Positions 4,036 through 64,000 of a stretch of DNA of 64,000 nt are shown piece after piece. The notes under the pieces were generated by a model that made no database searches, was not told the origin of the DNA, and saw only the letters and a program-made list of their open reading frames with translations. The DNA comes from Labilibacter sediminis (GTDB taxonomy: Bacteria; Bacteroidota; Bacteroidia; Bacteroidales; Marinilabiliaceae), in contig NZ_VCHY01000018.1 of assembly GCF_005877885.1 (NCBI RefSeq), positions 1 through 64,000 of the forward strand, written 5' to 3'. How positions within the stretch are numbered: position 1 is the stretch's first letter; the number at the start of each line of letters is the position of its first letter. The position numbers and the translations under genes were made by a program.

Positions 4036-4194
4036 TATTCAATATTTAAGTGTGTATAATTAATTGGGTAATTCTAAATACAAAAACTAAACGGGCACTA
4101 AATATTACATTTTCGGCCAACCGTTAAAGATAGCAAATAACCTTCAGAATTCACTTTTTAATTTGTTTCATGCGTTAATAATTTTCATTTGCAG

Positions 4195-4340
4195 CATGCC
4201 TGCCAGCCGTCAGGCTGGGAACTCTCAGGAAAATTTATTACTCACCAAGGTTTCACATTCAAAGATGATCATGAATACTTCGTATTTCATTCGCTTGTGT
4301 GTAAACTTGAATAATTAAATTTTACATGGTCATTTCATAT
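4195..4340 (-). repeat. Diverged copy of the start-codon-linked hairpin repeat
   Basis: Read on the minus strand this begins ATGAAATGACCATG, contains the ACACACAAGCG loop segment and ends near GAGAGTTCCC, like the copies at 24512, 24601, 46206 and 49587. The stem AAAATTTAATTAT near the start finds a partner about 90 bases later, because this copy has extra sequence in the loop. The usual CATCTGGC end is replaced by a CAGCCTGACGGCTG hairpin. It lies upstream of guaC in the same orientation. Confidence 0.55.
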
Positions 4341-7168: not shown

Positions 7169-7212
7169 GCCACCAACACAAAGAACTCAAACCTGTATAA
7201 TTCTCTTGTGAT

Positions 7213-7386
7213 TTAACCCGGATTATGTATTAGAACTTTGTGACGAGCATTGAAAGAGCAATAAAACAAGGTATTTCGGAAGCGAGGCATAGCATCGTTA
7301 TGGTGAGCTGACGTAATGCAGCGAAGTGTCTTGTTTTGAAGCAGTTTCAATGCGTAGTAGATTTTATAATGCATAACGCGGGTTTA
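7213..7386. repeat. Long-hairpin element, family A, copy 1
   Basis: A ~170 bp non-coding palindromic element. The ends AACCCGGATTATG and CATAACGCGGGTT are inverted repeats, with inner pairings such as TTGAAAGAGC with the region around GCAGTTTCAA. The centre GGCATAGCATCG is shared with the copies at 21305 and 51073. This copy is the most diverged of the three. It lies between two plus-strand genes. Confidence 0.75.
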
Positions 7387-7515
7387 AAGATAAGTCATAA
7401 AAACAATTGCAGAATAACTGGTCATATTCCTAACTTTTCCTCTCAAAAAATATTTTTACTTCAGATTATAATTTTATCTTAGTAGTGATAACCTAAACAG
7501 AGTAAAAATACACCA

Positions 7516-12824: not shown

Positions 12825-14423
12825 CTATTCAGCACTTCTTCGTCTATTTAGTTCCAGTGTGACCTCATCAAGTTTTTTCTGCGTAAGCGGATAGAGTGTC
12901 ATCAGAACTGCTGCTAACACCGCCACCAGGGCAGGAACCCAACTCATCAACATTTTAATGGCAGGTATAGCTCCTGGTATTGTACTGGCAACTAAACCAT
13001 CGTAGTGATAAGCAGATAGTACCAGACCAATGATAGCTCCAGCAAGTCCTCCTCCAAACTTAGTCACAAATGAACCTGCCGAATAAACCAAACCTGTAGC
13101 CCTTCTTCCATTTTTAAACTCAGAGTAATCAGCCGCATCACCAAGCATGGCAAAAAATAAAGTTGGAAATATTGCTGCGGCAAATTCTGAAACAATCCCT
13201 ATCGCAAAAATGGCTCCTACGTCTTCCGGGCCACAGAAAAACAACAAAGCATTGACTCCTCCAGAAAATAATAATGCATATATAAAAAGCTTTCGCTTTC
13301 CTAATCTTTTACCTAGTGGAGCTGTTATCATTGCACCTGCAACAGAAACTATCATTAATCCCACCAAAAAGGAGGCTGCTAGTAACTGATTGTGCACATA
13401 GTGTGTAAAATATATGATTACAATACCCTGTTTAATCGAGTTGTATATGGTAAACAATAAACCTATCCCCAATAGAACAAGCCATGGTTTATTGGTGATC
13501 AAATCTTTTAAATCATTAACCAAATTACTTTTCTGATTTTTAGGGGGATGAACTCTTTCCTTTGTACTATAAAAGGTAATTACCATAAAGGCTGCAAGAA
13601 ATATGGATAGCAAATAAATAGAGTAGCTGTATCCTTTCTTTTGATTGATTAGTCGAATCTTACCTGCAGATAAGTTCTCTTCTCCTTCTACAATAAATGT
13701 ATATTCAGTTTCAGCATCCATTGCGAAACTCTTATACTTTGCTGCTTCATCCGTTGAATCATTGGCCCAAACAAACGATGCAATACCATCTTTGGTTTTA
13801 ATATTTGCATTGCTAACAAATTCAGGAGTAGAAACTGTTACTTCGTATTTTGTTAGTGTTAATTCATTTACATCAATGCTTGGGTTGACATTTCCAAAAT
13901 AGGCTACCAAAAACAACAAAGCTCCTTGAACCAACATTCCACCACCAAAAGCGCCAACCATTCGGTACGAACCTAAACTTGTTCGTTCCTTATTGTCACC
14001 TGTCATAACGGCCATTAATGCTCCGTAAGGAATATTGTTCGCTGTATATATTAATGTAAACAATATATAAGTAGTGTATGCATACACAATTTTACCTGTT
14101 TCACTTAGTTCCGGACTAGTAAATAACATAGATAAAATGGCTGCTAACGGAAAAGCAGTCCATAATACCCACGGTCGGAATTTTCCATGTTTTGACTTTG
14201 TTCTATCTCCCACTATGCCCATCAAAACATCACTTACTCCATCACTTGAACGTGCTATTAGCAGTAGTAAACCCGCTGTTGCCGGAGTTATTCCAAAAAC
14301 ATCAGTATAAAAAAACAATAGAAAAGTAGACACTCCCCTCCATGCTATATTAGCAGCACCATCACCTAGTGCATAACCTATTTTCTCCTTTATTGATAAT
14401 TTATTTGCAGTCATTTCTTTCAT
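12825..14423 (-). CDS. GPH family sugar:cation symporter
   Basis: A 532-residue inner-membrane transporter of the glycoside-pentoside-hexuronide (MelB-like) major facilitator group, with about twelve helices. IAWRGVSTFLLFFYTDVFGI and the RSSDGVSDVLMG motif near the N-terminus are typical. It probably imports cellobiose or short cellodextrins for the phosphorylase encoded next. Unusually, it carries about 90 extra, mostly polar residues (about 178-270) between helices, making it some 60 residues longer than MelB; this looks like a small extracytoplasmic domain. The start may be at the second Met (14414). Confidence 0.85.
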   Translation of the reverse strand: MKEMTANKLSIKEKIGYALGDGAANIAWRGVSTFLLFFYTDVFGITPATAGLLLLIARSSDGVSDVLMGIVGDRTKSKHGKFRPWVLWTAFPLAAILSMLFTSPELSETGKIVYAYTTYILFTLIYTANNIPYGALMAVMTGDNKERTSLGSYRMVGAFGGGMLVQGALLFLVAYFGNVNPSIDVNELTLTKYEVTVSTPEFVSNANIKTKDGIASFVWANDSTDEAAKYKSFAMDAETEYTFIVEGEENLSAGKIRLINQKKGYSYSIYLLSIFLAAFMVITFYSTKERVHPPKNQKSNLVNDLKDLITNKPWLVLLGIGLLFTIYNSIKQGIVIIYFTHYVHNQLLAASFLVGLMIVSVAGAMITAPLGKRLGKRKLFIYALLFSGGVNALLFFCGPEDVGAIFAIGIVSEFAAAIFPTLFFAMLGDAADYSEFKNGRRATGLVYSAGSFVTKFGGGLAGAIIGLVLSAYHYDGLVASTIPGAIPAIKMLMSWVPALVAVLAAVLMTLYPLTQKKLDEVTLELNRRRSAE

Positions 14424-14536
14424 CTGTTTATAATTATGATTCGATGATCACTGATGAAACTCGCCAGCTTAATTATTCTGCTACGTCAGAAAATTCTTCT
14501 CTTGGATCGTTTCATGTGGTCTTTATGATTCTATAT

Positions 14537-21284: not shown

Positions 21285-21304
21285 TTATTTAACTAGAGAT
21301 AAAT

Positions 21305-21474
21305 AAACCCGCATTATGTATTATAACTTCGTCATGAACGTTGAAATCACGATAACACAAGGCTTTACTGAAACGAGGCATAGCATCGTTCTGGTGAGTT
21401 GAAGTGAAGAAACAAAGTGTCTTGTTTTGAAGTGATTTCAATGTGTAATAGATTTTCTAATGCATAAAGCGGGA
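21305..21474. repeat. Long-hairpin element, family A, copy 2
   Basis: A 170 bp palindromic element with terminal inverted repeats CCCGCATTATGTATTATAA and TTCTAATGCATAAAGCGGG (16 of 19 positions pair). The inner stem TTGAAATCAC pairs perfectly with GTGATTTCAA, and the tip ACGAGGCATAGCATCGT is itself a small hairpin. It lies between convergent genes and is very similar to the copy at 51073. Confidence 0.8.
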
Positions 21475-21521
21475 TAAACCACCATTCCCAAACCTTATAA
21501 GTTGAAATTCATAGAAAAATA

Positions 21522-24511: not shown

Positions 24512-24600
24512 ATGAAACGAGCCATGATAACTATTTCTCACACAGAAGTATGATTGATTTGGCGAGTTCCATGTGGCAATAAAAAGCAAAATATAAACAC
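24512..24600 (+). repeat. Start-codon-linked hairpin repeat, copy 2
   Basis: An 89-base unit starting ATGAAACGAGCCATGA and ending CAAAATATAAACAC, directly followed by the next ATGAAA. Apart from a stretch near positions 15-25 it is identical to the 90-base unit at 49587, 25 kb away. The stem around TATTTCTCACACAGAAGTA and the closing pairing ATGAAAC/GTTCCAT can form. It lies in tandem with copy 3 upstream of the acyltransferase gene. Confidence 0.8.
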
Positions 24601-24683
24601 ATGAAACAACCATGCAAATTTGATTATCCAAATTGACACACAAGCGGATGATCAAATTTATTTGGGAGTTCCATCTGACCATT
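24601..24683 (+). repeat. Start-codon-linked hairpin repeat, copy 3
   Basis: This unit starts ATGAAACAACCATG and ends GAGTTCCATCTGACC. The main stem AAATTTGATTATC/GATGATCAAATTT has the same geometry as copy 4 at 46206 with two compensated base-pair changes. The loop contains ACACACAAGCG. It is followed after about 20 bases by the probable ATG of the acyltransferase at 24703. Confidence 0.75.
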
Positions 24684-24702
24684 GAAAAATAAATTTAGAC
24701 AG

Positions 24703-27375
24703 ATGAAAGACAAACATCCAATTATAAAAGCCATAGCGCAACTTATTTTTTTACTGGGCAGAATGATGCTGTCTTTACGATATAAAGTTACGCTTTCACG
24801 GATAGATCATATTGACAAAAACAGGCCTGTATTGTTTTTACCTAACCACCAGGCTGTAGTAGATCCTATGTTATTGGTCAGTTATTTATATCCCCATAAA
24901 AATATTGTTCCTGTTATTACTTCAACATATTATGATTTACCCATTTTATATAAGTTTTTTAAAAACTGGGGTGCTGTAAGAGTGAGCGATCTGGAAGCAG
25001 GAAGTAGAAATACTAACGTTTTAAACGACATTACCAACGCTACAACAAAAGCTTTTGAGTACAAAAGAAGTATTGTAATTTATCCTGCCGGGCAAATTGC
25101 CGGACAAGGTTTTGAAAGAATACTGAATAAAAAAGGTGCACATGAAATAGTTAAAAACATTCCTGATGATGTGCAAATTGTTGGTGTAAGAATTTCGGGA
25201 TTATGGGGAAGTACATGGTCAAAGGCATGGACAGGCCAATCGCCTAACTTTGTTAAACGGGTATTTAAAAGCTTTTTTTACTCCCTGGCTAATTTAATCT
25301 TTTTTATGCCCCGACGACATGTGCATATGCATTTTGAAGACCTCACTGAAACTTTAAAGCTTAGCTCCACTCGGGATAAACACGTTTTTAATAATCATCT
25401 GGAACAATTTTATAACGCACAAGGCGAAGAGTCACCTGTCTTTTTAAAGCATTACTTTTATAGTCCAAAACTTAAACGCAAATTACCGGATGTTATTAAA
25501 GGATCTGTTGTTCATGTAAAATCAGCTAAGGTTCAAAACAAACTAAAAAAATATCCGCTGGCCATAACCAAAGGTGTAAATAAGATTGTAGCTCAACAAC
25601 TACAAATTAACATCAATGAAATAAAAGAAGAATCTGATTTAATCATTGATTTAGGTGCAGACTCCTTAAGCATGGTTGAAATTATTTCGGCCGTGGAAAA
25701 ACAGTTTAATGTAGAAACCATTAATGATGTTAGCGAACTAAAAGTGGTTCATGACATTTATATGTTGGCCAACGGCGATTTACAATATCAGCAGGCATTG
25801 CCACCCTGCTCTTTTAAAACATCAGCTCCATTTAAAGACTATATTAAAATAAATAGTCTGGAAAATATTCCCACTCAAATTATTCAACGATTTACATCCA
25901 ATCCAAATCTGGCATTCTCATATGATGCCATGCTTGGAGAAACCACTCGAAAAAACTTTCTACTTAAAGCTTGTGTGGTAGCCGAAATCATTAAACAAAA
26001 AACAGATAATGAACGTATTGGCATCATGCTACCTGCTTTGCAAAGTACAACCTTACTGATTACGGCTACATATTTGGCAGGTAAAATACCGGTTATGCTT
26101 AACTGGACAGTTGGACAGAAAATACTGGATCACTGTATTACTGAAGCAAATATTGATAAAATTCTTACAGCTGGAAGTTTTGTTGAAAAAGTAAAAGACC
26201 AACTTCCCGGCTCCATCACTGAAAAGCTGGTATTATTGGAAAAAGAAGTTCCCAATGCCGGTATAAAAACCAAGCTTACCGGTGCCATAAAAAGTAAGTT
26301 TCCTAAATGGCTCATCAATACCCAGAACATTAGCGATACCGCAGTCATCCTATTTACATCAGGTAGCGAAAACTTACCTAAAGCAGTCCCTCTTACCCAC
26401 AGTAATATTATTCACGATCTTAAGGGAACTCTTGAACTTATTAACCTGGAAAGAAACCAAATACTACTGGCCTCTCTCCCGCCATTCCATAGTTTTGGGT
26501 TTACCATTTTATCCATTTTACCTTTACTTACCGGAGTCAGAACCGCCTACTACCCCGATCCCACAGATGGCAAAGGAATTGTTAGAACACTTAAACATAC
26601 TTCGTCCAGTATATTGGTATCAGCCCCAAGCTTTTTAAAAATTATATTGGGAAATGCTATACCCGAAGATTTAGTTTCACTCAAACTTGTTGTTTCTGGT
26701 GCAGAAGCTATGCCTCCTGAAATTAAATCCTTTTTGGGATCTCTTGCTCCTCAGGCAACTCTAATTGAAGGGTATGGCATTACAGAATGTGCTCCGGTAC
26801 TTTCTTTAAATCCCTTGCAGTTGCAAAAAGAAAGAAGTGTTGGTAAAATTATTAAAGGAGTTGATTGCAAAATCATCAGCCTTGAAACTTCAAATATTCT
26901 TCCTCCTAACAACGAAGGCATGATTTGTTTTAAAGGGCCTAATGTTTTTAATGGTTATTTAAACGATCAAATACAATCGCCTTTTATCGACATTGACGGC
27001 TCATCATATTATAAAACAGGTGACTTAGGTTATTTAGACACAGATGGTTACTTATTTATAACGGGTAGATTAAAACGCTTCGTAAAAATTGCTGGCGAAA
27101 TGATTAGTCTTCCGTTTTTAGAAGAGGTTTTGTCGTTTAAATTTGGTGATGACGAAGAAAAAGTACTGGCCATTGAAGGAAATGATAAAGTAAATCCTGT
27201 TCAGATAGTGTTATTTACTTCAAAGCCCATTAGTATAAAAGAAGCCAATGAGCACCTAAGGCTTAGCAATGCTCCTCCCATAGCTAAAATCACAAAGGTT
27301 GAACTTGTTGAAGCTATACCCATGTTAGGAACAGGAAAAATAGATTATAAATTATTAAAAGAGATGGTACAATAA
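24703..27375 (+). CDS. Acyltransferase-ACP-acyl-ACP ligase fusion (Aas-like)
   Basis: An 890-residue three-part protein. Residues about 1-230 form a PlsC-type acyltransferase with N48-H49-x4-D54 (NHQAVVD). Residues about 280-360 form an acyl carrier protein whose GADSLSMVE motif carries the phosphopantetheine serine. The rest is an AMP-forming acyl ligase with FTSGSENLPK, EGYGITECAP, TGDLGYLD and the C-terminal GTGKIDYK lysine. It would activate a fatty acid, load it on its own ACP and re-acylate lysophospholipid at the inner membrane. E. coli Aas lacks the built-in ACP. The frame opens with TTG at 24682 inside a repeat; ATG 24703 is the better start. Confidence 0.87.
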   Translation: MKDKHPIIKAIAQLIFLLGRMMLSLRYKVTLSRIDHIDKNRPVLFLPNHQAVVDPMLLVSYLYPHKNIVPVITSTYYDLPILYKFFKNWGAVRVSDLEAGSRNTNVLNDITNATTKAFEYKRSIVIYPAGQIAGQGFERILNKKGAHEIVKNIPDDVQIVGVRISGLWGSTWSKAWTGQSPNFVKRVFKSFFYSLANLIFFMPRRHVHMHFEDLTETLKLSSTRDKHVFNNHLEQFYNAQGEESPVFLKHYFYSPKLKRKLPDVIKGSVVHVKSAKVQNKLKKYPLAITKGVNKIVAQQLQININEIKEESDLIIDLGADSLSMVEIISAVEKQFNVETINDVSELKVVHDIYMLANGDLQYQQALPPCSFKTSAPFKDYIKINSLENIPTQIIQRFTSNPNLAFSYDAMLGETTRKNFLLKACVVAEIIKQKTDNERIGIMLPALQSTTLLITATYLAGKIPVMLNWTVGQKILDHCITEANIDKILTAGSFVEKVKDQLPGSITEKLVLLEKEVPNAGIKTKLTGAIKSKFPKWLINTQNISDTAVILFTSGSENLPKAVPLTHSNIIHDLKGTLELINLERNQILLASLPPFHSFGFTILSILPLLTGVRTAYYPDPTDGKGIVRTLKHTSSSILVSAPSFLKIILGNAIPEDLVSLKLVVSGAEAMPPEIKSFLGSLAPQATLIEGYGITECAPVLSLNPLQLQKERSVGKIIKGVDCKIISLETSNILPPNNEGMICFKGPNVFNGYLNDQIQSPFIDIDGSSYYKTGDLGYLDTDGYLFITGRLKRFVKIAGEMISLPFLEEVLSFKFGDDEEKVLAIEGNDKVNPVQIVLFTSKPISIKEANEHLRLSNAPPIAKITKVELVEAIPMLGTGKIDYKLLKEMVQ

Positions 27376-38065: not shown

Positions 38066-38100
38066 AATTTATAAATGAAAAATGATACAATATTTTAGCC

Positions 38101-38152
38101 ACGATGGAATGAATTCCATCGCTCAGTTTAGTCTTCCCTTCAGGACGATAAC
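38101..38152. repeat. REP element, single half
   Basis: One arm of the REPIN-like family: GATGGAATGAATTCCATC hairpin followed by GTCTTCCCTTCAGGACGAT. The opposite arm is absent or decayed (CATTGTC remains near 38160). Confidence 0.65.
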
Positions 38153-39720: not shown

Positions 39721-39788
39721 TTTAGTATTTTATTGATTCTGATTAATTATATTTTTCGATCTTTCTATTTGTAATATTTTAAATATTC

Positions 39789-39912
39789 ATTGTCCTGAAA
39801 GGACATATCAGCCTATCGAAGGGATTCATCCCGTCGATAAAACTAAACTCCATACAATATTTCACGACGGAATAAATTCCGTCGCTTTGTTTAGTCGTCC
39901 TTTCAGGACGAT
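39789..39912. repeat. REPIN-like inverted REP pair
   Basis: Complete pair: TGTCCTGAAAGGACA and TCGAAGGGATTCATCCCGTCGA, then a short spacer, then CGACGGAATAAATTCCGTCG and GTCGTCCTTTCAGGACGAT. The two halves are inverted relative to each other, the arrangement expected of a REPIN/BIME. Confidence 0.8.
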
Positions 39913-39945
39913 AGCATAACCATAACTCAAACATTAATATTCGCT

Positions 39946-46039: not shown

Positions 46040-46183
46040 ATGAAATTGAAAATTCCCGAAAATGTAAAAAATCCATTAATCTATCTATTGATAATTCTTT
46101 TCATCTGTTTAAAATTTGTTTTTAGTTGCCAGATGGAACTCTCAAAAGAATTTAATCATCCTAGTGTGTGTGAATTTAGATAA
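46040..46183 (+). pseudogene. Short frame running into a repeat, possible gene remnant
   Basis: A 47-codon frame starts MKLKIPENVKNPLIYLLIILF, one good membrane or signal helix, and after FVFSC runs directly into repeat copy 4, which supplies the last ~18 codons and the stop. It looks like the 5' end of a lipoprotein or membrane protein gene cut by the repeat. No continuation was found on the far side. Confidence 0.3.
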
Positions 46184-46206
46184 TTAAATTCTCATGTTCG
46201 TTTCAT
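46125..46206 (-). repeat. Start-codon-linked hairpin repeat, copy 4
   Basis: Read on the minus strand: ATGAAACGAACATGAG, stem GAATTTAATTATC, loop with ACACACACTAG, stem GATGATTAAATTC, then GAGTTCCATCTGGC. It pairs as copy 3 does, with two base pairs changed on both sides. It lies antisense between the histidine kinase and the surface operon. Confidence 0.75.
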
Positions 46207-49586: not shown

Positions 49587-49676
49587 ATGAAACGAGCCAT
49601 GAGCAAATACTTCTCACACAGAAGTATGATTGATTTGGCGAGTTCCATGTGGCAATAAAAAGCAAAATATAAACAC
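49587..49676 (+). repeat. Start-codon-linked hairpin repeat, copy 5
   Basis: A 90-base unit from ATGAAACGAGCC to AATATAAACAC, ending exactly where the ATGAAA of the next gene begins. The stem ATACTTCT/AGAAGTAT is perfect with loop CACAC, and the outer pairing CATGAAAC/GTTCCATG closes it. It is almost identical to copy 2. In this copy the unit is also an open frame of 23 codons ending TAA at 49656-49658. Confidence 0.8.
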
Positions 49677-50951
49677 ATGAAAAGTTTAATATATATATTC
49701 ATTGCAGTTCTTCTGTATTCATTTCATACTATTTCTGCACAAAACATTGGTGATCTGGACGGCATATACTACCAGGCAGTTGCTCTTGATGATGAAACCC
49801 AGGAAATTGTTGGGGTAGACATTGAAGCCAAGCCGCTTTATAACAGGGAAATTGGTGTTCGTTTTACAATCTCTAAAGGCTTGGATGGAGATATTCAGTG
49901 GGAAGAAACCCATGTTACAACAACAGATAAATATGGTTTGTTTACCTTAACTATAGGGCAAGGTGATGTTAGCAGCACAGCCTACGCACGATTATTGGAT
50001 ATTCCATGGATTGATGCAGACCAGTTTTTAAAAGTAGAGATTTCAACAAAAAATGATGGTAACTATAAGATTGTAAGCAACCAGAAATTTATGGCTGTAC
50101 CTTATGCTTTTTATACCGATGACATTGCGGATGACGCCATCAGAACAGAAAAAATCTTAAATGAAGAAATTCTTGCTGAAGATATTAAGGAAGGTGCGGT
50201 TGAGACTTCCGAGATTCTGAATGAAACTATTCTGGCTGAGGATATCAATACTGACGCAGTAGAAACTTCCGAAATATTAAATGAAACTATCCTTGCTGAA
50301 GATATTAAAGAGGGGGCTGTAGAAACTTCTGAAATTTTAAATGAAACTATCCTTGCCGAAGATATAAGCACGGGTGCGGTTGAATCTGCGGAAATTTTAA
50401 ATGGAACTATTGTAAATGAAGACATCGCTAATACAACGATCGATTTAACTACCAAAGTTACCAATGTTTTGCCTGTGGCAAATGGAGGTACCGGACTTGA
50501 TGGTTCTGCTGCAAGTGACGGTCAAATTCTTATTGGAGATGGTATAACAAATGACTTCAAATTAGGTAATATTTCGGCTGGTGAAGGAATTGAAATTGCC
50601 AACTCACCCGGAGGTATTACAATAACATCTCCTCCTATTTCGACACAAACCAGCTCCGATGGTTCATTTGAAATACCGGTAGGAAGTAACGGAAGCATCG
50701 GTGCAGGAGAAGCCTGGTATTCTCCTAACAGTTTAAAAGTTTCTCCTCCGGCTGATAAACCTTTTGAAATGGGTGACATTTTCCTTGCTTCAGCAAACGT
50801 TGATTTAAAGGGGTGTATTTTATCTGTATATCTGCAAAGTATTGATGGAACTGATGGAAGAGCCAATGTTCAGGTAATATTATTTAATCCTCAAAACAAA
50901 ACTGTTACCTTGCAAACACCAGTTACCTTTAAATTCTTACTTGTTAAGTAA
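49677..50951 (+). CDS. Exported repeat protein with tail-fibre-like region
   Basis: A 424-residue exported protein (signal peptide about 1-21). An N-terminal globular region (22-150) is followed by about five copies of a 20-residue repeat, ETSEILNETILAEDIKEGAV, at about 155-255, encoded by a 60 bp DNA repeat. Next is LPVANGGTGLDGSAASDGQIL, a motif common in phage tail fibres and bacterial surface stalk proteins, and a C-terminal beta domain. The regular repeat suggests a fibrous or trimeric stalk. Its start codon lies at the edge of a repeat unit. Last gene of the surface set. Confidence 0.75.
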   Translation: MKSLIYIFIAVLLYSFHTISAQNIGDLDGIYYQAVALDDETQEIVGVDIEAKPLYNREIGVRFTISKGLDGDIQWEETHVTTTDKYGLFTLTIGQGDVSSTAYARLLDIPWIDADQFLKVEISTKNDGNYKIVSNQKFMAVPYAFYTDDIADDAIRTEKILNEEILAEDIKEGAVETSEILNETILAEDINTDAVETSEILNETILAEDIKEGAVETSEILNETILAEDISTGAVESAEILNGTIVNEDIANTTIDLTTKVTNVLPVANGGTGLDGSAASDGQILIGDGITNDFKLGNISAGEGIEIANSPGGITITSPPISTQTSSDGSFEIPVGSNGSIGAGEAWYSPNSLKVSPPADKPFEMGDIFLASANVDLKGCILSVYLQSIDGTDGRANVQVILFNPQNKTVTLQTPVTFKFLLVK

Positions 50952-51006: not shown

Positions 51007-51072
51007 GCTTATAATAGAACTAACAGCTCTGAAATTTTAGTTCACAATTAATGTAAAAACATGTCTTCACTT

Positions 51073-51243
51073 AAACCGGATTATGTATTAGAATTTCGTC
51101 ATGAACATTGAAAGCTCAATAAAACAAGGCTTTACTGAAACGAGGCATAGCATCGTTCTGGTGAGTGGCAGTGAAGCAACAAAGTGTCTTGTTTTGAAGT
51201 GATTTCAATGTGTAATAGATTTTCTAATGAATATTTTGGGTTT
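51073..51243. repeat. Long-hairpin element, family A, copy 3
   Basis: The same 170 bp element as at 21305, sharing nearly unbroken stretches such as GGCATAGCATCGTTCTGGTG and CTTGTTTTGAAGTGATTTCA. The left end is AAACCGGATTATGTATTAGA; the right end has decayed to TTTCTAATGAATATTTTGGG. Confidence 0.8.
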
Positions 51244-51275
51244 ATACAAAAGGTTAAGTTTTTATGCACTAATTC

Positions 51276-51520
51276 ATTTAATTCCGCTGCTTTGTTTAGT
51301 CGTCCTTTCAGGACGATTACGCAACACCCATTGTCCTGAAAGGACATATCATCCTATCGATGGGATTTATCCCGTCGATTATACTAAAATCCATACATTC
51401 ATTTCACAACGGAATGAATTCCGTCGCTTTGTTAAGTCGTCCTTTCAGGACGATAACGCAACACCCCATTATTCTGGAAGAACTTATCAACTAATCAATA
51501 GGATTGATTTCTTCGATCGG
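51276..51520. repeat. REPIN-like elements left of the transposase
   Basis: About one and a half inverted REP pairs: TTCCGCTGC..GTCGTCCTTTCAGGACGAT, TGTCCTGAAAGGACATATCA with ATCGATGGGATTTATCCCGT, then a second CGTCCTTTCAGGACGAT arm and decayed remains up to 51520. The last bases touch the end of the transposase gene. Confidence 0.8.
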
Positions 51521-51522
51521 TT

Positions 51523-51975
51523 CTAATCCCACAAATAATCCTCATTGAAATCAACATTATACTTGTTTAGGAATCCTCGATATTCTTCTACAAAACCTTT
51601 CTTCTCATGATGTTTGTGTTGATTAAGAATATAATTTTTCACCTTTTCAATATCAGCAGGATTAACCGAAAAAGCGCCATATCCATCTTGCCAGTAAAAA
51701 TTGCACAAATGATTACCTTGTTCTTTCATCCATATCGAGGATCGTCCCTTTATCTTTTTTACCAGCTCAACCAAAGAGATATTCTTTGACAACAAACACA
51801 GTATGTGAATATGGTCTGTATACCCTCCAACAACTAAAACCGGACAATCCATATCATTACACAACTCTCCCAAATAGGCATGAAGTGCTTGTTCATATGG
51901 TGGGTAAATCATTGGTTCACGATGCTTTGTACCAAAGGTGATATGTATGTAGTTTTTTACGAGTGATTGTCCCAT
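51523..51975 (-). CDS. IS200-like Y1 transposase, probable RAYT
   Basis: A 150-residue Y1 (HUH) transposase. The metal-binding HUH motif is DHIHIL (H55, H57) and the catalytic tyrosine is Y115 in KNYILNQHKHHEKKGF. The length and the C-terminal EYRGFLNKYNVDFNEDYLW are usual for the Bacteroidota IS200-like group. There is no tnpB. Copies of the REPIN-like palindrome flank it closely on both sides, so it fits a REP-associated tyrosine transposase that nicks and moves REP sequences as single strands. All catalytic residues are present. Confidence 0.9.
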   Translation of the reverse strand: MGQSLVKNYIHITFGTKHREPMIYPPYEQALHAYLGELCNDMDCPVLVVGGYTDHIHILCLLSKNISLVELVKKIKGRSSIWMKEQGNHLCNFYWQDGYGAFSVNPADIEKVKNYILNQHKHHEKKGFVEEYRGFLNKYNVDFNEDYLWD

Positions 51976-52031
51976 ATTTAGTTTTAGGTTTCGGTTATAT
52001 TGGTTTAAAAGATATTATTTGTTTTTATTTT

Positions 52032-52220
52032 TCGACGGAATGAATTCCGCCGCTTTGTTAAACCGTCCCGTCAGGACGATAGCAAAACTACCCACTGTCC
52101 TGAAAGGACATATCATCCTATCGATGAGATTGATCCCATCGATATTAACAATTACATTCTTCTTTTCTCACGACGGAATAAATTCCATCGCTTTGTATAG
52201 TCGTCCTTTCAGGACGATAT
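52032..52220. repeat. REPIN-like elements right of the transposase
   Basis: CGACGGAATGAATTCCGCCG and CGTCCCGTCAGGACGAT, then TGTCCTGAAAGGACATATCA with TCGATGAGATTGATCCCATC, then a second CGACGGAATAAATTCCATCG plus GTCGTCCTTTCAGGACGAT arm. Together with 51276-51520 they bracket the transposase gene almost symmetrically. Confidence 0.8.
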
Positions 52221-52246
52221 CAAAACTATCCAGTTATACCTGATTA

Positions 52247-52435
52247 TGCTTAATTTAATCCGCAAGACCATTTCTTTTTGTCTACTATCATTAAACCAAC
52301 ATCCTTACCAACCCACCGGCTGGCAGGTAATCCGGCTTTTATTAAAAGGTGCTACAAAACATTTATTGAATTACTCCTATATAATTACAGCTCACTGATT
52401 CCTCGGGTTGCAGATGTGCGTCTACAGGGCAGGTT
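52247..52435. repeat. Accessory-region repeat, diverged copy 1
   Basis: Shares TAATCC..AGACCATTTCTTTTTG, TATCATTAAACCAAC, GTGCTACAAAACATTTATTG and TCTACAGGG with the two better copies at 53982 and 55908, but is shorter and has many changes. Confidence 0.6.
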
Positions 52436-54681: not shown

Positions 54682-54715
54682 ACAATTCTTTTTTTATCCT
54701 AACTAACTCATCCTG

Positions 54716-54803
54716 ACAGTCAACCTCGCTTCAGGACGATCTACCACCTACCCACTGTCCTGAAAGGACATATCAACTAATCGATGGGATTAATCCCGTC
54801 GAT
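54716..54803. repeat. REPIN-like element, partial
   Basis: Decayed first arm (CTTCAGGACGAT) and an intact second arm: TGTCCTGAAAGGACATATCA followed by ATCGATGGGATTAATCCCGT. Confidence 0.7.
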
Positions 54804-54818
54804 ATTAAGGATAGTATT

Positions 54819-55445
54819 TTAAAATGAATATTTTAATCCTAATTCAATCGAATGCATATAACCATCCTTCAAAGATAAATTTTCAATCATTCCGCCATAT
54901 TCATCAAAGTCTAAACCATTATACAAAGCCTTTATTCCCTGAGAATATCTAATTTCAACTCCAATATTTTCCGAAATACTATACTCCGCTCCACCAATTA
55001 CATTTAATGTTAGGTCTTCAAAATTATCTTTCCACTCACTTTCAGGTCTTCTTTTTGAACTTATTTTATATCCAATACTTGGTCCTAGCATGAATTTAAT
55101 TTTATCACTAACTGCATATTTTAAAAGCACTGGTAATTCAATTATATTAAAAGTAACACTAACATTCTTGTTACCCGAATCCTCAGGTATATTCCACCCT
55201 TTAGCTATAAATAGAACCTCTCCATTTATCGATAAATCATTCTTAAGTGGAATACCTATATATCCACCTACATAATACCCTGGTCTGTAATTAAGATCAC
55301 CATCTGAAGAACTAAAGTTAGCCTTGGAAAGATTCATACCTCCCTTAACCCCAACTTCAATATTTTTCTTTTCTTGTCCTTTTAAAACCACATGATAACT
55401 TGCAATACACATTACAATAATTAAAACTCTAATTTCCTTTCTCAT
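54819..55445 (-). CDS. PorT-like outer-membrane beta-barrel protein
   Basis: A 208-residue protein when started at ATG 55445, which gives a proper signal peptide (MRKEIRVLIIVMCIASYHVVL); the frame continues upstream to 55508. The mature part begins IEVGVKGGMNLSKANF, typical of the outer-membrane beta-barrel (PorT-like) family, and ends in the aromatic strand LGLKYSF. It probably spans the outer membrane with eight to ten strands. No specific role can be given. Confidence 0.75.
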   Translation of the reverse strand: MRKEIRVLIIVMCIASYHVVLKGQEKKNIEVGVKGGMNLSKANFSSSDGDLNYRPGYYVGGYIGIPLKNDLSINGEVLFIAKGWNIPEDSGNKNVSVTFNIIELPVLLKYAVSDKIKFMLGPSIGYKISSKRRPESEWKDNFEDLTLNVIGGAEYSISENIGVEIRYSQGIKALYNGLDFDEYGGMIENLSLKDGYMHSIELGLKYSF

Positions 55446-62330: not shown

Positions 62331-62951
62331 AATAATTAAACGTGGTTAAATCGTCACTAAATTAAAATTATATAAAACATACCATCTGTAAAAATATTTT
62401 AACATTAATTAATATAATATTCACACCGAATACTACCAGCATTATCCTCTCATAATCACACCTCTTTCATAGCTCCCACAAAACACTCATATAATGACAC
62501 AAACACCAATCCCACTCACTCTGATCACCCAACAATTCATCTGACCAAGCTTACAATAACACTAACATAAACTTCTTACCAACTTACATCTCTGTTGAAC
62601 AGCATAACCACCTCTACTCTTTAGCTCACTCCAGCAATCAGACACATTCCCTGTTCAATTCACAACGCAACGCTCCCTTCATTTTATCATCCGATGCCTA
62701 TGTTATCACACGACGCCTCTTTCGTAACAACTTCCCTGTCTTTCTTTTCTTCTAACGGCTCTTATAAGGTGCAGTTCAGCCCATTCTTGTCACACTACGT
62801 GGTTATTGTCAACAGCATCCGTGCCTTATGAATTTCATTCCGGGTCTTCTGAAAGAGCTTCACACCCTTCTGAAATATCGATCAACGCTTCTGAATTTGG
62901 TACCGCCTCTTTCGCACCAGCCATCAACCCTTTTGAAAGAACTAACATATT
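62331..62951. other. Strand-biased non-coding region
   Basis: About 600 bases without a reading frame. The plus strand is rich in C and T and poor in G from about 62400 to 62940, with loosely repeated words such as CTTCTGAA, GCCTCTTTCG and CCTTCTGAAA. On the minus strand this would be a purine-rich leader of the coiled-coil gene. Confidence 0.5.
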
Positions 62952-63064
62952 CACGATGGAATAAATTCCATCGCTTGATTTAGTCGTCCATTCAGGACGC
63001 TTTGCCACACATATCCTGTCCTGAAAGGACAGCTGAACCTAACGATGGGATTCATCCCGTCGTT
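62952..63064. repeat. REPIN-like inverted REP pair
   Basis: CACGATGGAATAAATTCCAT and GTCGTCCATTCAGGACG, then TGTCCTGAAAGGACAGCTGA and AACGATGGGATTCATCCCGT. Complete pair. Confidence 0.8.
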
Positions 63065-63235
63065 AAAAAGCGTAAGCCAGTTCAAACCCAAAGGATTCAA
63101 TCCGTCAAGTTCAGCAAACATTATTCATCATGTAAATCAACTCTCCTCCTTACCAAAAAAGGAGTACGGTGAGGCACGAGCCGGGAGGTGGTTTTATAAC
63201 ATATAACGATAGATTCTACCTTTCAAATCATCCAC
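63065..63235. repeat. Right-end composite repeat, copy 1
   Basis: Linker with CCAGTTCAAACCCAAA and AGCAAACATTATTCATCA, then CTCCTCCTTACC and GGTGAGGCACGAGCCGGGAG and TGGTTTTATAACATATAACG. The same order of segments recurs at 63704-63870. Confidence 0.75.
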
Positions 63236-63242
63236 TTTTTTT

Positions 63243-63357
63243 CCACGATGGAATAAATTCCATCGCTCAATTTAGTCGCCCCTACAGGACGACCTAACAC
63301 TTATTCCCTGTCCTGAAAGGACAGCTCAACCCAACGATGGGATTCATCACGTCGTTA
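63243..63357. repeat. REPIN-like inverted REP pair
   Basis: CACGATGGAATAAATTCCAT, GTCGCCCCTACAGGACGAC, TGTCCTGAAAGGACAGCTCA and AACGATGGGATTCATCACGT. Slightly decayed pair. Confidence 0.8.
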
Positions 63358-63420
63358 AAAGCGTAGGCCAGAACCAAATCCAATTTCGAACTCTTAAGTA
63401 TACCATATAATTTCAATCAT

Positions 63421-63597
63421 TCACAGTGCGCTGGCCAGTTCAATTGGCCCGGGCCGGAGCTAGAGTGACGCAGTCGAATGCGGGAGATTAAGGCCAATGC
63501 GAAGGCAAAAATTCGACAAGGAAGAGCGCTGAAGGATGAATTGAACTAGACATTTTGTTTCTTTTAGGGCAATGCTAAAAGAAAACCCGTCTGTTAA
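63421..63597. repeat. GC-rich palindromic island with terminal stem
   Basis: A GC-rich insert with CCAGTTCAATTGG and GGCCCGGGCC palindromes, AAGGCCAATGCGAAGGC, and AATTGAAC near its right part. It continues into TTCTTTTAGGGCAATGCTAA, closed by AAAAGAAA; this last hairpin matches the one at 33872. No protein is encoded. Confidence 0.5.
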
Positions 63598-63606
63598 CAC
63601 ATAGCC

Positions 63607-63703
63607 ACGCCAGAATAAATTCCGTCCCTTCAGAACGATCTACCACCTACCCAATGTCCTGGAAGGACAAGTCAACCCAACGATGGGATTCATCCCGTCG
63701 TTA
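63607..63703. repeat. REPIN-like pair, first arm decayed
   Basis: AATAAATTCCGTCCCTTCAG remains of the first arm; TGTCCTGGAAGGACA and AACGATGGGATTCATCCCGT form the second. Confidence 0.7.
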
Positions 63704-63870
63704 AAAAACATAAGCAAGTTCAAACCAAAAATCTCATCCCGAAGTGTTTAGCAAACAATATTCATCAAGGAAATCATCTCTCCTCCTTACCAAGGAGGAG
63801 TCCGGTGAGGCACGAGCCGGGAGGTGGTTTTATAACATATAACGATAGGTTTTCATGTTCAAATCATCCA
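63704..63870. repeat. Right-end composite repeat, copy 2
   Basis: The same segments in the same order as 63065-63235: AAGTTCAAACCAAAA, AGCAAACAATATTCATCA, CTCCTCCTTACCAAGGAGGA, GGTGAGGCACGAGCCGGGAG and TGGTTTTATAACATATAACG. The first copy has lost part of the CTCCTCC stem. Confidence 0.75.
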
Positions 63871-63884
63871 TATTCTCTTCTTTC

Positions 63885-64000
63885 CACGACGGAATAAATT
63901 CCGCCGCTTTATTTAGTCGTCCCGTCAGGACGATAACTTTACACCCCACTGTCCTGAAAGGACATATCACCTTATCGATGGGATTGATCCCATCGACTAT
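63885..64000. repeat. REPIN-like inverted REP pair at the window end
   Basis: CACGACGGAATAAATTCCGC, GTCGTCCCGTCAGGACGAT, TGTCCTGAAAGGACATATCA and ATCGATGGGATTGATCCCAT. The window ends inside or just after the pair. Confidence 0.8.

Follow-up and report, generated by a model that had tools for sequence, protein, structure and literature searches.

A short repeat family in Labilibacter sediminis is best explained, in our reading, as a non-autonomous element that inserts immediately 5' of ATGAA, preferring start codons, and is moved in trans as folded single-stranded DNA; we give this reading as a whole a probability of roughly 0.55. The family was noticed in a 64,000-nucleotide stretch of one contig (the window), where a sequence-only reading had listed five copies with compensatory changes in a stem. 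All five lie where they had been placed, and our analysis confirms the family and brings the window to six copies. The boundaries of the element, a second covarying hairpin, the ATGAA target and the preference for start codons go beyond that first description.

The unit is about 90-102 nt long (longer where the stem carries inserts) and has the order ATGAAACGA - hairpin - GA-GTTCCAT - NTG - A-rich stretch of about 20 nt - CAN. Its left end is ATGAAAC and its right end CAN; ATGAA comes next, usually as part of the start of an unrelated gene. The guide segment GTTCCAT is nearly invariant among 57 copies of the genome. Copies 2 and 3 stand in tandem and share one ATGAA, which both follows copy 2 and opens copy 3. 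A long ORF lies downstream of only three of the six window copies (starts 24703, 49677 and 14423), the last of these being ORF 12825-14423 behind the sixth copy, a sugar transporter by Pfam. Downstream of copy 2 lies copy 3, and only short ORFs follow copies 1 and 4; after copy 4 comes ATGAAAAGAATT.., with just a 7-codon ORF. Copy 1 is a long stem variant with a GC-rich palindrome inserted between GAGTTCC and CATGC. Palindromes of this kind (GCCTGCC..CAGGC type) are found inside element copies at 4172-4338 of the window (minus strand) and at loci L034, L060 and L064, and upstream in L041 and L044. They occupy the same spot, between GAGTTCC and CATG, in some copies and the loop in others, and form a second, REP-like family.

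Table 1. Coordinates of the element copies, their parts and associated genes in the window (CM, covariance model).
Feature	Position	Strand	Remarks
Copy 3, ATGAAAC...CAG	24601..24702	+	CM match 24601-24708, 118 bits
Gene after copy 3	24703-27372		Starts at 24703 (ATGAAAG); acyltransferase/AMP-binding protein (Pfam)
Copy 3 left terminus ATGAAAC	24601..24607	+	Complementary to guide segment except one A.C mismatch
Copy 3 hairpin 1 inner stem, 5' arm	24616..24629	+	
Copy 3 hairpin 1 inner stem, 3' arm	24646..24659	+	
Copy 3 guide segment GTTCCAT	24668..24674	+	Pairs with left terminus; its CAT pairs with target ATG
Copy 3 NTG triplet (CTG), hairpin 2 5' arm	24675..24677	+	Covaries with CAN
Copy 3 CAN triplet (CAG), hairpin 2 3' arm	24700..24702	+	Abuts start codon; covaries with NTG
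Copy 2	24512..24600	+	CM match 24512-24606, 87 bits
Copy 5	49587..49676	+	CM match 49587-49682, 82.7 bits; 424-aa ORF begins at 49677
Copy 4	46105..46206	-	CM match 46099-46206, 115.7 bits
Sixth copy	14424..14515	-	CM match 14418-14515, 52 bits
Copy 1, degenerate	4172..4338	-	CM match 4183-4338, 31.7 bits, E 0.03
IS200-like Y1 transposase gene, 150 aa	51523-51975	-	Pfam PF01797, E 6.9e-25

Across the 6.36-Mb genome, GAGTTCCATSTGRC with up to two mismatches occurs at 191 places, against 40 for a reversed-pattern control. A covariance model with 25 pairs was built from 57 of 64 non-redundant copies (three of the seven left out have stem inserts); it gave at least 147 matches in the same genome at E ≤ 1, the best at 2.7e-21, among 150 candidates scored. 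These pattern and model counts imply that the repeat is not a product of chance. In the window alone, the 14-mer with up to three mismatches was not significant, with 12 matches found (four of them exact), 8.8 expected and 24 of 100 shuffles reaching 12.

There is very little doubt that the element is mobile. In one genome (G006), six copies with different flanks share exactly the same sequence from ATGAAACG through CATATGAAA. Another (G004) holds a 90-nt unit in eight identical copies with different flanks and a one-base variant of it in four identical copies, two of which lie inside a longer repeat. The groups of six and eight together comprise 14 copies; downstream of 13 lies an ORF of at least 158 aa, and downstream of the other just 29 codons. 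The upstream flank of five of the eight G004 copies resembles the tail of an older copy, implying that those targets were starts already used by the family. A syntenic empty site was found in G005 at the transporter of the sixth copy, where the stop of a NUDIX gene is followed by a spacer of about 29 nt and ATGAAA, with no element between. The earlier suggestion of a structure selected "in RNA or as single-stranded DNA during movement" is thus borne out as to movement, which the identical copies with different flanks and the empty site demonstrate.

The same two genes were compared in further relatives. Within 200 nt before the aligned transporter start, GAGTTCCAT is absent in seven of seven relatives, several of which have start codons other than ATGAA. 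For the gene behind copies 2 and 3, inspection by eye of the 330 nt before the start in six relatives found no full element; the start is ATGAAAG in all but one of them, which has ATGAGAAA. In G004 (L467), ATGAAACGAGC stands directly before the transporter ATGAAA and is likely a remnant of the element, left by deletion between two ATGA-like strings, and in L277, read for the gene behind copies 2 and 3, one stretch may also be a remnant. Elsewhere, the element precedes related proteins of one BLAST cluster in two genera (L133 in G019 and L153 in G006, whose protein reads like coaD); these insertions are probably independent, the L153 copy being one of the six identical recent ones. The longer repeat of G004 (TTAGTGGCTGCAAGAAAACGAC..., L138-L144) carries an old element copy and occurs at least seven times with it, and other element copies (L454, L456) sit inside this repeat. 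As a candidate IS, this composite repeat was rejected, having no long ORF.

The boundaries of the element are fixed to within the shared ATGAA. The flank itself is constant. With ATGAA present at either end, the cut can be placed only to within this motif, and a 5-bp duplication would be hidden. This arrangement, in a small and non-coding element, is what would be expected of a classical MITE mobilized by a DDE transposase through terminal inverted repeats, with ATGAA as its 5-bp target duplication. However, the termini as read from the alignment, ATGAAACG and AAACAN, are not inverted repeats, and the left side still reads ATGAAAC at L006, where the target differs (ATGACA). Moreover, left base 7 varies with the guide in a few copies, implying that this base belongs to the element. 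We therefore consider a MITE very improbable.

The element has two conserved hairpins. In hairpin 1, ATGAAAC pairs with GTTCCAT (with one fixed A.C mismatch), followed by tandem GA/GA, a near-fixed C-G pair and a variable stem. In hairpin 2, absent from the first description, NTG pairs with CAN, and the helix is extended by CAT and the ATG of the target. The strongest covariation lies in hairpin 2. Its N positions form a Watson-Crick pair in 271 of 301 copies from a parse that required CA.ATGAA (AT 96, CG 88, GC 87); among 112 matches in contigs of other genomes, the counts are CG 39, AU 29, GC 27, UG 4 and GU 3, with 10 unpaired.

The compensatory changes originally reported concern hairpin 1. 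As claimed, both partners have changed at two positions between the stem of copy 3 (AAATTTGATTATC/GATGATCAAATTT) and that of copy 4 (GAATTTAATTATC/GATGATTAAATTC), and copies 2 and 5 have a different stem in the same place. From this it had been argued that sequence turnover with kept pairing reflects a selected structure. On the 57 own-genome copies the argument held for three of five covariation measures, none of which was reached in 500 shuffles: paired cells make up 89.0% (82.4 in shuffles), cells changed on both sides number 87 (27.9), and the covariation score stands at 0.169 (0.083). The other two did not stand out, with 8 pairs showing change on both sides against 7.1 in shuffles (one slid version has more) and 30 further pair types against 31.6. 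All five measures exceeded 500 of 500 shuffles and every slid version on the 112 matches from other genomes, with 90.4% of cells paired (77.9 in shuffles) and 214 changed on both sides (84.9), in an alignment that was fitted to the model and whose loci came mostly from a scan in which N was free on both sides and most of GTTCCAT and of hairpin 2 was prescribed. In two other parses (91 of 98 parsed copies entered the shuffle), wherever several right-hand ATGs fitted, the one that favoured pairing was taken. Overall, these data support a selected structure. Two outcomes had been named beforehand as telling against it, a lack of significant covariation genome-wide and a match of the copies to a known IS terminus; neither was found.

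The base of hairpin 1 also varies. In a few distant copies the left end and guide change together, from ATGAAAC/GTTCCAT to ATGAAAT/ATTCCAT; the combination at left base 7 and guide base 1 is C-G in 246, T-G in 15, T-A in 4, C-A in 2 and G-G in 1 (n = 268), and the covariation of this closing pair comes from few copies. The tandem GA/GA is replaced by AT/AT in G023 (L334, L337) or by GC/GC (L394, L395). RNAalifold, run on the 57 copies, recovered hairpin 2 alone; the left stem appears once the structure is named and was probably missed because two stem classes are mixed in the alignment. When four window copies were folded as RNA, both hairpins were retained in the predictions and AAC/GTT closed hairpin 1 (z -2.2 to -4.6). 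The opposite strand folded as DNA is weaker: three copies have z of -2.3 to -2.4, one is no better than shuffles, and copy 4 takes another shape. A conserved upstream peptide beginning at the left ATG was rejected, since the ORF stops inside the element, at varying places, in 260 of 278 copies.

These folds bear on the idea that the element is a mobile cis-regulatory RNA, in which hairpin 2 (CAUNUG/CANAUG) sequesters the start codon, with hairpin 1 as a competitor for GUUCCAU, to make a translational switch or thermosensor. The start AUG does lie within hairpin 2 in the predicted RNA folds, the pairing covaries and most copies are at start codons; furthermore, Bacteroidetes are reported to tune translation through the structure of the mRNA and the bases around the start codon (PMC6847099). 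But pairing is nearly as good where there is no gene to regulate: it is kept in 59 of the 68 copies that do not precede an ORF of at least 50 aa (87%; these include copies standing before another copy), against 168 of the 184 that do (91%). The downstream genes are unrelated, relatives lack the full element at the same two genes, and both hairpins coexist in the predicted folds, where a strict switch is not seen. An effect on translation may exist; the pairing kept away from ORFs implies that none is needed to explain the element, and we regard the regulatory explanation as unlikely.

The preferred reading, insertion just 5' of ATGAA, draws on the sequence that follows the copies. Retrieval of the own-genome copies did not require ATGAA, and 89 of the 90 that were parsed are followed by it, the exception being L006. 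For all sources the figure is 248 of 253, some loci coming from a scan that did require ATGAA; of the five exceptions, four are apparently parse errors. (The parses sought CA.ATG with the third base free; the one behind the counts of downstream ORFs also had a looser fallback, allowed mismatches and includes a few false elements.) An ORF of at least 50 aa is preceded by 62 of the 90 own-genome copies and another copy of the element by 16, whereas gene starts make up 21 of 84 ATGAA sites outside coding sequence, a baseline that covers the window alone and uses rough gene calls. Start codons are thus very probably used more than ATGAA alone predicts, a placement that could come from selection instead of targeting. 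The inferred empty sites prefer A at +6 and +7, with frequencies of 0.91 and 0.71 at 201 sites compared with 0.52 and 0.54 at 495 other ATGAA ORF starts. Clustering of the ORFs downstream of the 253 parsed copies showed ordinary, unrelated genes. A match between the guide and the base before the target, suggested by CAT before seven of the eight identical G004 copies, failed on 216 solitary copies (65 matches, shuffle mean 59.5, p 0.21).

An RNA route was also weighed, in which element RNA would insert into mRNAs at accessible AUGAA and a reverse transcriptase would copy the product back. This would account for both the orientation and the preference for start codons, and it is consistent with the enrichment of sense-orientation copies at gene starts, the predicted RNA structure and the observation of no lagging-strand bias in G004, where gene orientation confounds the comparison. 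Set against it are the absence of a match to known RNA families in Rfam and the fact that the placement could arise by selection alone, and we judge it a little less likely still than the regulatory RNA.

Returning to insertion as folded single-stranded DNA, a landing just 5' of ATGAA would leave ATGAA behind the element as before. The element would supply an A-rich leader, and the host gene would retain its start codon and a plausible initiation region. Bacteroidota lack Shine-Dalgarno sequences, according to the accessible part of the same study (PMC6847099); the A-rich tail looks like an initiation region of this phylum and, from its sequence, might work as one. If the targeting is real, the element has solved the safe-harbour problem of a compact genome by leaving the gene intact and bringing a leader along. 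More than 100 genes here, and probably as many in several relatives, would then have a start region that is both foreign and structured, with consequences for start annotation and for expression. A bolder version, a start-codon transposon that recognizes translation starts as such, re-supplies the initiation region, uses a new class of enzyme (not Y1, RAYT or DDE) and has spread through Bacteroidota, appears doubtful to us.

On the opposite strand the order is TTCAT^ - NTG - about 20 nt - CAN - ATGGAAC (guide) - hairpin - GTTTCAT^. The two putative cut sites are each on the 3' side of TTCAT, and both are matched by the complement of a single guide, ATGGAAC, placed where the 5' foot of one hairpin begins. 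The likeliest mover would be an HUH-type single-strand DNA transposase acting in trans. We see about an even chance of movement as a folded single strand, and hold a Y1-type enzyme as the mover to be a tentative candidate only. The pairing of guide and terminus offers a direct handle on the mobilizing enzyme, with the conserved A.C mismatch as a candidate point of cleavage.

The search for a mobilizer found none. No pair of element ends was found in the approximately 3 kb around each of the six Y1 loci of the genome. PF01797 had no match (E ≤ 0.001) in G014 (98% complete, 32 copies), G022 (64 copies) or G023 (24 copies); G022 and G023 each have two weak matches to NF047646, leaving G014 alone with neither (E ≤ 0.001). 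An autonomous version was sought among the downstream ORFs, whose clusters have at most six members and consist of ordinary genes, with no recombinase among the cluster heads listed; the largest clusters we take, from reading their sequences, to be sulfatase-like and SusD-like. The loci with the shortest stems, L009 and L062, were considered as a transposase locus, and no transposase was found there. IS608 and ISDra2 target the lagging-strand template, according to the part of PMC6006769 that was available. In G004, 85 of 132 insertions are co-directional with replication, compared with 118 of 198 genes (Fisher p 0.42), a comparison confounded by gene orientation. The origin and terminus were placed from 20 samples of 15 kb, and the sample at 1,550,001 (10 genes, located at the skew switch) was excluded from the gene baseline.

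Mobilization by a RAYT (TnpA_REP) would make the element REP-like, belonging to the Bacteroidetes subclass 2.6 with its published "atypical secondary structures". As far as the available text of PMC6006769 goes, subclass 2.6 genes are mostly from Bacteroidetes and are flanked by atypical structures copied elsewhere in the genome; NF047646, moreover, matches in 52 of 61 genomes. Yet the element is present at only one of 30 RAYT loci (E ≤ 0.01), and other palindromes adjoin several RAYT genes. The distributions also disagree, as G014 has 32 copies and no NF047646 match, whereas G012 has 10 NF047646 matches and no element at E ≤ 0.01. This origin is, in our judgment, improbable, somewhat more so than the RNA route.

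Other repeats lie in the same window. A family with CGACGGAATnnATTCCGTCG and GTCCTnnnAGGAC palindromes occurs at 38075-38150, 39788-39913, 51243-52280, 54693-54821 and 62927-63996, some of its copies flanking the IS200-like gene on either side. A third family (D6) is found at 7194-7394, 21285-21485 and 51052-51252; ACAAGGCTTTACTGAAACGAGGCATAGC...TCTTGTTT, near 51,1xx and in L096, may belong to it.

Beyond its own genome, the element has a patchy spread, as for a mobile element. The covariance model matches 38 of 61 genomes (its own and 60 relatives) at E ≤ 0.01 under stricter filters; in a phylum-wide set of 198 genomes that includes its own, it matches 13 at E ≤ 1e-4. A pattern scan of named genomes gave at least 114 stretches; 78 of the 80 titled stretches listed are Bacteroidota by name, and the other two are both "Bacterium BMS3Abin03". 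Hosts named among the matches listed include Carboxylicivirga, Labilibaculum, Marinifilum, Geofilum, Natronoflexus, Paludibacter, Prevotella and Aquimarina. Plasmids and phages gave no match, and viral contigs gave four matching stretches.

The sequence-only reading knew of no named element with this signature, and our searches agree. Rfam 15 has no match in the window at the gathering score, and for three loci searched at E ≤ 1 its sole hits are in L016 (153-251), some 1.2 kb away from the element of that locus. A literature search, whose scope stops short of subscription papers and preprints, returned no description of the element and no text with both signature strings. In the literature searched, the habit of a mobile element landing before start codons has no published description.

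How does the element compare with known systems? The consensus boxes of integron attC sites are RYYYAAC/GTTRRRY. Like attC as commonly described, the element would act as a folded strand with AAC/GTT at the base of a stem; it differs in having no such boxes, in the absence of cassette arrays among the copies seen and in its ATGAA target. With REP/REPIN sequences and their RAYTs it shares being short, structured, present in many copies between genes and probably moved in trans. In contrast to them, it has no GT[AG]G foot, is not found next to RAYT genes (one of 30 loci excepted), and has a fixed ATGAA target and one orientation relative to the following gene. RAYT subclass 2.6 is near to it by theme, its atypical structures being compared here by their description in the accessible part of PMC6006769. 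TAACTGA repeats likewise stand just before the start codons of functionally unrelated genes, and occur in five Bacteroidetes too; they are heptamer direct repeats without the sequence of the element, and no transmission mechanism is evident in the portion of the report at hand (PMC4679880).

The closest comparison is with the ends of IS200/IS605. The element differs from these in having one hairpin instead of two, a guide of 7-10 nt with a fixed A.C mismatch instead of a tetranucleotide, no linked Y1 gene and no lagging-strand bias seen. It resembles them in that the guide lies at the 5' foot of a hairpin and is complementary to the cleavage sites, an anatomy described in the available part of PMC6006769, and in that both sites are 3' of TTCAT on one strand, without inverted repeats. 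The subterminal hairpin with its 5' guide is thus found in part, as a single hairpin whose pairs are kept and covary. We do not claim membership of that family; the odds that the element works like IS200/IS605 are about even, and its geometry would then be that of a single IS200/IS605 end doing the work of two.
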